Assembly: GCF_900163565.1 (NCBI RefSeq)
Contig: NZ_FUHU01000026.1
Coordinates: 186,001 to 250,000 of the forward strand
Origin: Agrococcus casei LMG 22410
Lineage (GTDB): Bacteria; Actinomycetota; Actinomycetes; Actinomycetales; Microbacteriaceae
DNA length: 64,000 nt
Reading direction: 5' to 3'
The notes under the pieces were generated by a model. That model was not told the origin of the DNA. It made no database searches and saw only the letters and a program-made list of their open reading frames with translations. Shown piece by piece: positions 37,183 through 56,261 of the stretch. Every line of letters starts with the position of its first letter. The first letter of the stretch is position 1. A program made the position numbers and the translations under genes.

Positions 37183-40454
<3,272 letters not shown>

Positions 40455-40471
<17 letters not shown>

Positions 40472-41267
40472 CCTGCTCGCAGCGGGAGTCGCCGAGCGCG
40501 GCCCCCTCTGCGTGGGCGTGGACCCGCACCCGTACCTCCTGAAGGCATGGGGGCTGACGGATGCGCCGTCTTCACTCGTCGAGTTCGGGCTCGCCACGGT
40601 CGCGGCCGCGGCCGGACGCGTCGCTGCGATCAAGCCGCAGGTCGCATTCTTCGAGCGTCACGGGTCGAAGGGCTACGCGGCGCTCGAATCGGTGCTCGCA
40701 GCGGCTCGCGAGGCGGGCCTCATCGTGATCGCCGACGCCAAGCGAGGCGATGTGGGCACGTCGGTGGCGGCCTACGGAGAGGCATGGCTCTCACCCGGCT
40801 CACCGCTGGAAGCAGATGCGCTGACTGTCAGCGCCTACCAGGGCCTCGGATCGCTCTCGGAGGTCATCACGCTTGCTCGCGATGCGGGCAAGGGGCTGTT
40901 CCTGCTCTGCGCGACGAGCAACCCGGAGGCCGCGGTCGTGCAGCGTGCTGTGACCGAGACCGGCGCCACCGTCGCCAGCCTCATCGCAGACGAGGTCGCG
41001 GCGCTCAACGCAGACGACGCAACGGGATCATTCGGGCTCGTCATCGGCGCCACGATCGAGCGGGAGTCGTTCGGACTCCGGCTCGACTCGCGCACGCCGA
41101 TCCTCGCACCCGGATTCGGAGCGCAGGGCGGCACCCTCGATCGCCTCGGCGACCTGTACCCGACAGACGCGCCGGTGCTTGCATCCGTCTCGCGCAGCGT
41201 GCTGCAGGCAGGCCCTGGCGGCCTGGCGGACGCGATCGACGATCACCGACGTCAGCTGGGCCTGTGA
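40455..41267 (+). CDS. pyrF: Orotidine 5'-phosphate decarboxylase
   Basis: A 270-residue enzyme of the actinobacterial/type 2 group that makes UMP. It has [26 protein letters not shown], and the catalytic loop [14 protein letters not shown] with the Lys and Asp pair, then [11 protein letters not shown] and SRSVLQAG. I placed the start at GTG 40455, which overlaps the end of carB by 17 nt. A longer in-frame extension lies inside carB and has shadow-like arginine-rich composition. Confidence 0.94.
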
Positions 41268-42139
41268 CGGCACCGTCGCAGTCGACCGCCTCGGAGGCGG
41301 CTGTGCGCGTCAGGCGAGCCCGGGCAGAGCTGAAGCGGCAGATCGCGGCGGGGGAGCGCAAGGCGCGTGAGCTGTGCGAGTCTGCCTGGCTCGACCCCGA
41401 TGGCGACGCGGCTTCGCTGCTCGTCGCCGAGGTGCTGGGATCCATGCGCGGCATGGGTTCGCTGCGCACGGCGCAGACGCTCGACGAGCTCGGCATCTCG
41501 TCACGCAGAAGGCTGCGTGGCGTCGGCATCAACCAGCGCAGGCGTCTACGATCCTGGTTGAGCAACAAGGAGGGCGCAATGAAACCACGTCTCGTCGTGC
41601 TGGCCGGGCCGACAGCGGTCGGCAAGGGCACGGTCGCGCAGTATGTCCGCGATCACTTTCCCGAGGTTCGCCACTCTGTCTCGACCACGACGCGCACCAT
41701 TCGGCCGGGAGAGGTCGACGGCGTCCACTACGAGTTCGTCACGGAGGCGCAGTTCGATCAGATGATCGAAGCGGGCGAATTCCTCGAGTGGGCGCAGGTG
41801 CACAACGCCTACCGCTACGGCACGCCGAAGAGCGCGGTCGAGCGCGAGCTCGCCGCCGGCCACAGCGTGCTGCTCGAGATCGACCTGCAGGGTGCGCGCA
41901 ATGTTCGCGAGCAGATGCCGAATGCCCTCACCATCTTCCTCGCGCCGCCCAGCTGGCACGAGCTCGTCAACCGTCTCGTCGGACGCGGAACCGAGTCGGC
42001 CTCCGAGCAGGAGCGCAGGCTCGCGACGGCAAGGATCGAGCTCGCGAGCCAGGACGAATTCGACCATGTCGTCGTCAACACCGATGTCGCAGAGGCCGCC
42101 CGCGAAGTGGTCGCCCTCATGCTTGACGACATCGAGTAG
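41264..42139 (+). CDS. gmk: Fusion: actinobacterial integration host factor (mIHF) plus guanylate kinase
   Basis: One open frame of 291 codons without a stop. Residues 1-105 (41264-41578) match actinobacterial mIHF: a basic helix with [17 protein letters not shown], then [36 protein letters not shown], the helix-two-turn-helix DNA-binding part. Residues 106-291 are guanylate kinase with P-loop [27 protein letters not shown] and [12 protein letters not shown] 41264 overlaps the pyrF stop (GTGA). Internal ATG 41579 has AAGGAGG 5 nt upstream, so a free Gmk is probably also made. In mycobacteria the two are separate adjacent genes. Confidence 0.88.
41567..41581 (+). promoter_or_regulatory. Internal ribosome binding site and start of free guanylate kinase
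   Basis: AAGGAGG at 41567-41573 is followed by 5 nt and ATG 41579, which opens the guanylate kinase domain [12 protein letters not shown]. It is one of the strongest Shine-Dalgarno sequences in the window and lies inside the fused coding frame. Confidence 0.75.
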
Positions 42140-42173
42140 AATGGATCTTTGCGTGCCTCTGCACGCCCAAAGA
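42137..42173 (+). promoter_or_regulatory. -10 element and hairpin before rpoZ
   Basis: TAGAAT (42137-42142) contains the gmk stop codon and may start the rpoZ transcript. Directly after it, TCTTTG.CGTGC and GCACG..CAAAGA form a stem of 6 plus 5 bp (42146-42173) that ends before AAGGAG. It could be a terminator of the pyr operon or a leader hairpin of rpoZ; no U-tract is present. Confidence 0.35.
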
Positions 42174-42192
42174 CACTAAGGAGCATTCCGCT

Positions 42193-42444
42193 ATGAAGGA
42201 ACAGGGCATCATCAACCCGCCCATCGACGAGCTGCTGTCGAAGGTCGACTCCAAGTACCAGCTCGTGATCTTCGCCGCCAAGCGCGCTCGTCAGATCAAC
42301 GACTACTACACCGACCTCTCCGAGGGCTCGATGTTCGACAACATCGGCCCGCTGGTCGACGCATCGCTCGATGACAAGCCCCTGTCTGTCGCAATGCACG
42401 AGATCGCAGAAGACAAGCTCTCGCTGAAGCCCTCCGGAGAGTAG
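42193..42444 (+). CDS. rpoZ: RNA polymerase subunit omega
   Basis: An 83-residue subunit that helps assemble the beta' subunit. It shows [33 protein letters not shown], the core of the omega fold, and [14 protein letters not shown] at the C-terminus. The ATG is preceded by TAAGGAG. The position between gmk and coaBC is universal in Actinobacteria. Confidence 0.96.
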
Positions 42445-42450
42445 TCCGCC

Positions 42451-43638
42451 GTGCGCGTCGTCGTCGGCGTCACAGGGGGCATCGCCGCATACAAGGCCGC
42501 CTGCGTCATCCGCCTGCTTGTGAAAGCGGGCCATGAGGTGCACGCTGTGCCGACTGCATCAGCGCTCCGCTTCATCGGCACGCCGACGCTCGAAGCGCTG
42601 AGCCGCAACCCGGTCTCGTCCGAGGTCTTCGACGACGTCGCCGAGGTGCGCCATGTCGCACTCGGCCAGAGCGCAGACCTCATCATCATCGCCCCGGCGA
42701 CCGCGAACTCCATCGCGAAGCTCGCCGGCGGCCACTCCGACGACCTGCTGGGCACCACGGTGCTCGCCAGCACCGCTCCCGTCGTCATCGCCCCCGCCAT
42801 GCACACCGAGATGTGGCAGAACAGCGCCACGCAGCACAACATCTCGGTGCTGCAGAGCCGCGGGGTGCACATCGTCGGCCCCGACAGCGGGGCCCTGACC
42901 GGCCACGACGTCGGCCCCGGTCGCATGAGCGAGCCAGACGAGATCGTCGAGGCGGCACTCGCCGTCGTCGAGGGCGCGGATGCGCGACTTGCGGGGCAAC
43001 GCGTCGTCGTCTCGGCAGGCGGCACCCGCGAGCCGATCGACCCCGTCCGATTCATCGGCAACCGCTCATCCGGTGCGATGGGCGCGGCGCTCGCCCGAGC
43101 GGCCGCAGAGCGCGGAGCCGACGTGACGCTCGTCGGCGCGAATCTCGAAGTGCCGGTTCCCGACGGCGTCCGCCACGTCGCGGTCGAGTCGGCCGAAGAG
43201 CTGCACGCCGCGATGCTCGAGCACGTCGACGCCGACCTGGTGATCATGGCGGCAGCCGTCAGCGACTATCGCGTCGTCGATGCATCCGACCGCAAGCGCA
43301 AGAAAGAGGCATGGGGCGATTCCCCGACGCTCGCCCTTGCCGAGAACCCAGACATCCTGGTCGATCTCGCATCCCGAGCGGAGGGTGTCGTCGTCGGCTT
43401 CGCCGCCGAGAGCGAGACCGACCCCGACGAGCTTCGCGAAGTCGGCCGCGCCAAGCTCGAACGCAAGGGCTGCGACTTCCTGGTCGTGAACAGCGTCAGT
43501 GCCGACACCGGATTCGGCGCCGTCGACACCAGCGTCATCGTGCTCGCACGGGGCGGCTCAGAGGCTGCTTCGGCATCCGGCGACAAGGTGTCAGTGGCAC
43601 GTGCCATCATCGAGGCGACAACAAAGGAGCATGTGTGA
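42451..43638 (+). CDS. coaBC: Bifunctional phosphopantothenoylcysteine decarboxylase/synthetase
   Basis: A 395-residue flavoenzyme for two steps of coenzyme A synthesis. The CoaC half has [17 protein letters not shown], the active-site [13 protein letters not shown] and adjacent loops. The CoaB half begins near residue 188 with [27 protein letters not shown] and has [10 protein letters not shown] and [25 protein letters not shown] 42451 starts 6 nt after rpoZ. metK overlaps its stop. Confidence 0.95.

Positions 43639-55055: not shown

Positions 55056-56261
<1,206 letters not shown>

Follow-up and report, generated by a model that had tools for sequence, protein, structure and literature searches.

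Results

The mihF-gmk fusion gene and its neighbors

The window analyzed here, a 64,000-nt stretch of the Agrococcus casei LMG 22410 genome (Microbacteriaceae), carries on its forward strand pyrF (40326..41267, start codon tentative; PF00215 OMPdecase, 86.5 bits), an mihF-gmk fusion gene (41264..42139), and rpoZ (42193..42444; PF01192). The fusion gene is an open frame from GTG to TAG of 291 codons plus the TAG, and its start codon overlaps the pyrF stop by 4 nt in the sequence GTGA (41264..41267). An earlier inspection of the sequence alone (the sequence-only reading) had proposed an in-frame fusion of mIHF with guanylate kinase; this was borne out, with both domains above their profile cut-offs and the architecture kept in the family.

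The actinobacterial-type IHF (mIHF) domain occupies residues 2–96 (41267..41551; NF041260, PF22525). The match to NF041260 (actino_IHF, NCBIfam) was marginal for the whole fusion, at 60.6 bits against a cut-off of 60, and reached 63.7 bits for the N-terminal piece alone (residues 1–105). Its H2TH core, residues 51–95 (41414–41548), was recognized by the Pfam profile H2TH_5 (PF22525; 37.7 bits, cut-off 27), and an RRLRGVG signature was located by alignment at residues 82–88 (41507..41527). Residues 97–108 (41552..41587) form the linker between the two NCBIfam matches and include the sequence AAGGAGG-GCGCA-ATG (41567..41581), which could act as an internal ribosome-binding site with its start codon and is found in the window's species only. 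When delimited with our own profiles, the linker is 9 residues long in the window and 7–25 (median 12) in fused loci of the family. The guanylate kinase domain, residues 109–286 (41588..42121), scored 219.5 bits with TIGR03263 (guanyl_kin), above the equivalog cut-off of 160.45, and 143.8 bits with Pfam Guanylate_kin (residues 108–285, cut-off 25.2); its P-loop, GPTAVGKGT, is present at 41606–41632.

By sequence, the nearest solved structure to the kinase part is M. tuberculosis Gmk (1znw, E 1.2e-56), and those nearest to the N-terminal part are sIHF SCO1480 (4itq, E 4.6e-8) and mIHF (6tob, E 2.3e-6). Foldseek placed sIHF-DNA structures (6bek/4itq) first for the AlphaFold model of the N-terminal domain, a low-confidence model (pLDDT 63), with a probability of 1.00 and E values of 0.012–0.05, none under 0.001. 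The fusion protein had a single match in its own genome (E 0.001 or better), which is the only guanylate kinase found there, and an mIHF profile detected the same gene and no second mIHF in that genome.

The N-terminal part resembles known mIHF/sIHF (Rv1388, SCO1480; NF041260) in its H2TH domain, its N-terminal RxxRAxxK helix, its RRxRG-type signature, and its place ahead of gmk, which the free genes share. It differs in that, lying in a fused frame, it is not the stand-alone small protein expected of an actinobacterial-type IHF; it is locked one to one with Gmk, and the gap behind pyrF is gone. NF041260 is typed equivalog_domain in NCBIfam, which suggests that curators have met actino_IHF as part of larger proteins. 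Compared with bacterial guanylate kinase (TIGR03263; 1znw), the kinase part is complete, with its P-loop and no unusual divergence, but it has gained an extra N-terminal domain of 105 residues. Separate mihF-gmk neighbors in corynebacteria and other families share the gene order of the fusion, and excerpts of PMC6155035 give the order mihF-gmk-rpoZ for M. tuberculosis; unlike the fusion, these neighbors have a stop codon, a separate gmk start, and a wider gap before mihF. In the parts of papers returned by literature searches on mIHF/sIHF, gmk, and guanylate kinase, no description of an mIHF-Gmk fusion was found.

The open frame is genuine and is a character of the family

A hidden stop codon or sequencing error would have undone the fusion, but both are ruled out by stop-free matches to it in all 24 genomes sampled from the genus, that of the window among them. 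Twenty-two of these span residues 1–8 to 285–291; the match in G017 begins at residue 14, at a contig end, and that in G018 at residue 27. Within the family, 246 of 249 sampled genomes contained a match, including 225/225 of the good ones, and the three without are 59%–88% complete. Among the family matches listed, all are stop-free and begin at residues 1–8.

We fetched 173 family loci, weak ones deliberately included, and classed them with our own profiles: 156 are fused, 15 lack the mIHF domain, one (L088) is cut by a contig end, and one (L083, from a genome 86% complete) is the sole fetched family locus with a broken frame. The recurrence of the architecture in 156/173 loci from 78 genera leaves virtually no chance that it is a sequencing or assembly artifact. 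Fused loci occur in 78 of the 84 family genera fetched, so the suggestion that the fusion is a lineage character was supported at this level.

Outside this family, the fetched loci either had mihF and gmk as separate neighbors, in agreement with the sequence-only reading, or yielded no mIHF. The exceptions were f44, a small-genome family with 8 of 11 loci fused, and f51, with 1 of 7. Family f44 may correspond to the freshwater Nanopelagicales. A scan of the contigs of named genomes yielded 15 loci, 11 of them from Corynebacterium, all split. No stop-free full-length match to the fusion was found among 18 phylum-level genomes searched outside the class; the families with low-scoring or odd mIHF covered there were f63, f69, f72, f78, f83, f85, f93, f97, and f110 and, in part, f66, f67, and f80. 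Loci were fetched from seven of the 18 genomes and were split in 7/7 cases, as were six more phylum-level loci chosen for their open frames of 236–399 codons.

The fusion arose more than once

A tree of 132 kinase rows grouped the f44 rows together (SH-aLRT 90), well away from the main cluster of the family, which held 42 of the 47 family rows (SH-aLRT 95). The five family rows outside this cluster were L082 (g28, fused, of uncertain placement) and four from g14 and g81, all without the mIHF domain. In a test set of 87 of the 269 loci, with 18 of the 156 fused family loci included and L082 left out, the AU test rejected a single clade of fused rows for the window's family (f1) with f44 (p 0.0012) and for f1, f44, and f51 together (p 0.0017); one origin of all fusions is ruled out on these values. 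As judged from the kinase phylogeny, the f44 fusions arose independently of those in the family. Grouping the f44 and f51 fused rows was not rejected (AU p 0.12), and the single f51 fusion may or may not be a third event.

The kinases of the small-genome genera g14 (L122, L221) and g81 (L126, L223) fall outside those of the family, as would be seen with a replaced gene or with long branches.

A possible internal start at 41579 is confined to the window's species

An AAGGAGG motif 5 nt before an internal ATG at 41579 had been described, together with the proposal that two products are made, a 291-residue fusion and a free 186-residue kinase. The motif is present exactly as described (41567–41573), and the ATG lies exactly at the kinase boundary. 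As a conserved design, the two-product proposal failed. None of the 23 congeners has an ATG at the kinase boundary, where they read, for example, VRGWLDDVDPSRRPRLIVLAGPTA or another 24-residue stretch. A linker-region ATG occurs in 8 of the 156 fused family loci; a seven-base Shine-Dalgarno (SD) sequence stands before it in the window and a four-base SD in one other locus. Counting linker start codons of every kind, only 5 of the 156 loci have one preceded by an SD of at least five bases. SDs of four or more bases were in fact rarer at linker start codons (18/245) than at other in-frame starts of the same family genes (383/2195). The conserved internal SD and start codon expected of a dual-product gene is absent from the family, and linker sequences and SD counts together rule out an internal start as a family design.

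The site may nonetheless be used in the window's species. AAGGAGG-N4-8-ATG occurs 53 times in that genome compared with 6 times for a reversed control pattern, so most copies mark real starts; however, 4 of 30 examined copies, the window's included, sit in frames that possibly start 100 or more codons upstream, so a single internal copy can be a matter of chance. A second AAGGAGG-N5-ATG lies within a long open frame at 56090–56104 of the window. In f44, an SD of four or more bases precedes 4 of 17 linker start codons compared with 11 of 88 starts elsewhere in the same genes, though these numbers are small, and L103 has a linker ATG behind a five-base SD. On balance, we regard synthesis of a free kinase beside the fusion in the window's species as rather unlikely; it would be compatible with the reading favored below.

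The gap behind pyrF has collapsed

We measured the gap from the pyrF stop to position 1 of the mIHF profile. In fused family loci with pyrF found (154/156), its median is 34 nt (range 11–124, all but three below 80). Our set of same-order free mihF genes comprises 33 loci, of which 10 had no pyrF found; in the remaining 23 the gap is 77–297 nt in 22 and 50 nt in one. Of the 15 named loci, which include 11 from Corynebacterium, 13 have a gap of 236–330 nt. The pyrF-mihF gap has thus collapsed in the fused family. A sigma-70 scan of 40200–42700 found no promoter, but in such GC-rich DNA the scan says little.

Change is concentrated in the mIHF domain

Against a profile of free mIHF from 71 loci, with free copies scored after leaving out their own family, fused family copies reached 30–92 bits (median 78, n = 156; window 66), whereas same-order free copies reached 112–158 bits (median 147, n = 33), so the fused domain retains about half of the score; other free copies scored down to 79 bits. 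The lowest fused value, 30 bits, belongs to L024, in which the N-terminal part was unmatched. Kinase profile scores were alike, with medians of 280 for the fused family and 287 for same-order free loci (window 280). The change in the family is therefore specific to the mIHF domain.

The ratio of amino acid change in the domain to that in the kinase has a median of 1.74 over 22 fused family genera and is 1.81 in f44 (two genera), compared with 0.35–0.90 in four free groups. In f6 (L180, L182, L242), free mIHF likewise changes quickly compared with its kinase (2.71), and some relaxation may therefore precede the fusion or be independent of it. The domain had a median within-genus dN/dS of 0.20 over 17 genera, and the kinase 0.14. 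These values rest on one pair in nine of the genera, and single values for the domain reach 0.65; in the window's genus dN/dS was 0.34 (domain) and 0.21 (kinase). Alignment positions R21, R24, K28, G67, R85, G90, and Q93 are kept in 94% or more of the 156 fused copies. These data indicate that the mIHF domain of the fusion is under purifying selection.

Silent changes gave a separate observation. In Corynebacterium (L255, L258, L259, L261, L262, L265), the mIHF/kinase pS ratio is 0.59, compared with 1.11 in fused family genera; free mIHF there has fewer silent changes than the neighboring kinase, as expected of a very highly expressed gene.

The arginine signature is altered in most fused copies

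The signature arginines of the window align with R170, R171, and R173 of M. tuberculosis mIHF in 190-residue numbering, using an offset of 85 residues between the 105- and 190-residue forms. Work by Sharadamma and others from 2017 is said to have found that these three residues matter for DNA binding. The third arginine of RRxRG is present in 30 of 33 same-order free copies. Among the 156 fused family copies only four have it, namely those of the window, L002, L003, and L227, and KRxGG is the usual reading in the family. In f44 it is missing from 8/8 fused copies and present in two of three free ones. Free copies outside the order have it in 29 of 38 cases and lack it in 9 (the named set makes up 15 of the 38). 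Five families outside the class (L118, L125, L132, L138, L142) have a free mIHF in which KT replaces the first two arginines and the third is missing.

The window and its two nearest congeners, L002 and L003, have RRLRG (41507–41521 in the window), and the window thus carries a full RRxRG. A regain of the canonical residues in the window's clade is probable, since its other congeners, like nearly all of the family, read KRx and have no third arginine.

Some lineages lack the domain

The 15 loci without the domain come from five genera (g11, g14, g65, g70, and g81). In 13 of them, at least one per genus, no more than 32 nt separate the pyrF stop from the first position of the kinase profile; L092 has a different, 286-nt stretch between pyrF and the kinase, and pyrF was not found in L217. 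A search for mIHF elsewhere in these 15 genomes, three of them 78%–84% complete, gave only partial matches, the best at 22 bits. Absence in five genera indicates that the domain is dispensable in some lineages.

Fourteen genomes of f4 (four), f3 (five), f23 (three), and f51 (two), one of which is 70% complete, had no mIHF beside gmk or above threshold elsewhere, and they seem to represent further lineages without mIHF.

Discussion

Taken together, the data are best accounted for by a demotion of mIHF, in which a nucleoid protein that once stood alone became an N-terminal domain of Gmk that is kept by selection and probably binds nucleic acid. We assign this reading a probability of about 0.6. 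The gene product would be one polypeptide, with a remodeled mIHF domain N-terminal to the only guanylate kinase found in the genome. The fusion would have arisen in the family ancestor when mihF, lying in the pyrF-mihF-gmk-rpoZ cluster and in register with gmk, lost its stop codon. The stretch between pyrF and mihF that is normal before a free mihF would have been lost as well, and we infer that it held a promoter. mIHF would thereby have ceased to be a separately and very strongly expressed nucleoid protein. Excerpts of PMC3724605 and PMC6155035 place M. tuberculosis mIHF among the most abundant proteins, and those of PMC6155035 among the top ten; such an excess can hardly persist when the domain is locked one to one with Gmk. 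The same excerpts of PMC6155035 describe deletion of mihF in M. tuberculosis as polar on gmk-rpoZ. The kinase would have remained normal, while selection would have preserved the mIHF part as a short, basic H2TH extension whose arginine signature has changed. This extension most likely binds nucleic acid more weakly or differently and serves to place or modulate the kinase. The domain would later have been lost from some genera, most of which have small genomes. The gap collapse, the domain-specific divergence, the altered signature, the second independent fusion, and the domain loss in five genera did not figure in the sequence-only reading.

Several observations count against this demotion of mIHF to a kinase domain. 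Median net charge, although it shows that the domain has stayed basic, is higher, not lower, in fused copies (+9; window +8) than in free copies of the same order (+6) or of others (+7). In f44, fused copies score 86–133 bits (median 117) with the free-mIHF profile, within the range of the free ones (93–143), so fusion need not bring divergence. Rapid change relative to the kinase is seen in the free mIHF of f6 too, and the third arginine is missing from 9 of 38 free copies outside the order. In addition, weakened binding may not hold for the window's species, since the window and its two sisters have the full RRLRG.

The odds of the alternatives overlap with those of the favored reading, and some can hold together with it. 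It is possible, if somewhat improbable, that strong DNA binding holds GMP kinase on the chromosome, a placement that the sequence-only reading had raised, and links the local supply of GDP with DNA or with stringent control. Such a tether would fit a basic domain that is kept across 78 genera under purifying selection, the RRLRG of the window, the leading position of sIHF-DNA structures in the fold search (E 0.012–0.05), and the independent fusion in another family, but the third arginine is gone in 152 of 156 fused family copies, the profile score is about halved, and five genera do without the domain.

We consider it quite unlikely that fusion was a neutral event and that the domain is a passenger without binding activity. 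The faster change of the domain than of the kinase (median 1.74 over 22 genera), the dN/dS of 0.34 against 0.21 in the window's genus, and the five genera without the domain would all be expected of a remnant; they are set against a dN/dS of about 0.2 over 17 genera (nine resting on one pair, with values up to 0.65) and the seven positions kept in at least 94% of copies. The losses show that the domain can go, yet 78 genera retain it. A polyprotein cut in its linker into two separately working parts is highly improbable, for although the linker varies in length and sequence, no shared cleavage motif was apparent by eye among the junctions listed, and free mIHF would still be tied to Gmk abundance.

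The proposed demotion of mIHF to a domain of Gmk bears on what this protein is for. mIHF is reported to be essential in mycobacteria, according to excerpts of PMC10028186 and PMC6155035, yet a whole family keeps an altered mIHF only within a metabolic enzyme, and some of its genera have none. The fused family amounts to a natural experiment on the requirement for mIHF, and the repeated, independent joining of this pair of neighbors offers a clean case of stop-codon loss becoming a fixed protein architecture. The fusion is also a candidate for connecting nucleotide synthesis directly and physically to nucleic acid. The genome of the window's species has one HU match (Pfam, 87 bits), and neither Lsr2 (Pfam profile) nor a free mIHF was found in it. 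We would speculate, as an unlikely but far-reaching extension, that in such a cell guanylate kinase captured a nucleoid protein, as it would have done at least twice in the actinobacteria, so that a protein that packed DNA in bulk now serves as the address of a nucleotide enzyme. The result would be a low-copy GMP kinase, bound to nucleic acid, that may tie the supply of guanine nucleotides, and possibly control by (p)ppGpp, to RNA or the chromosome.
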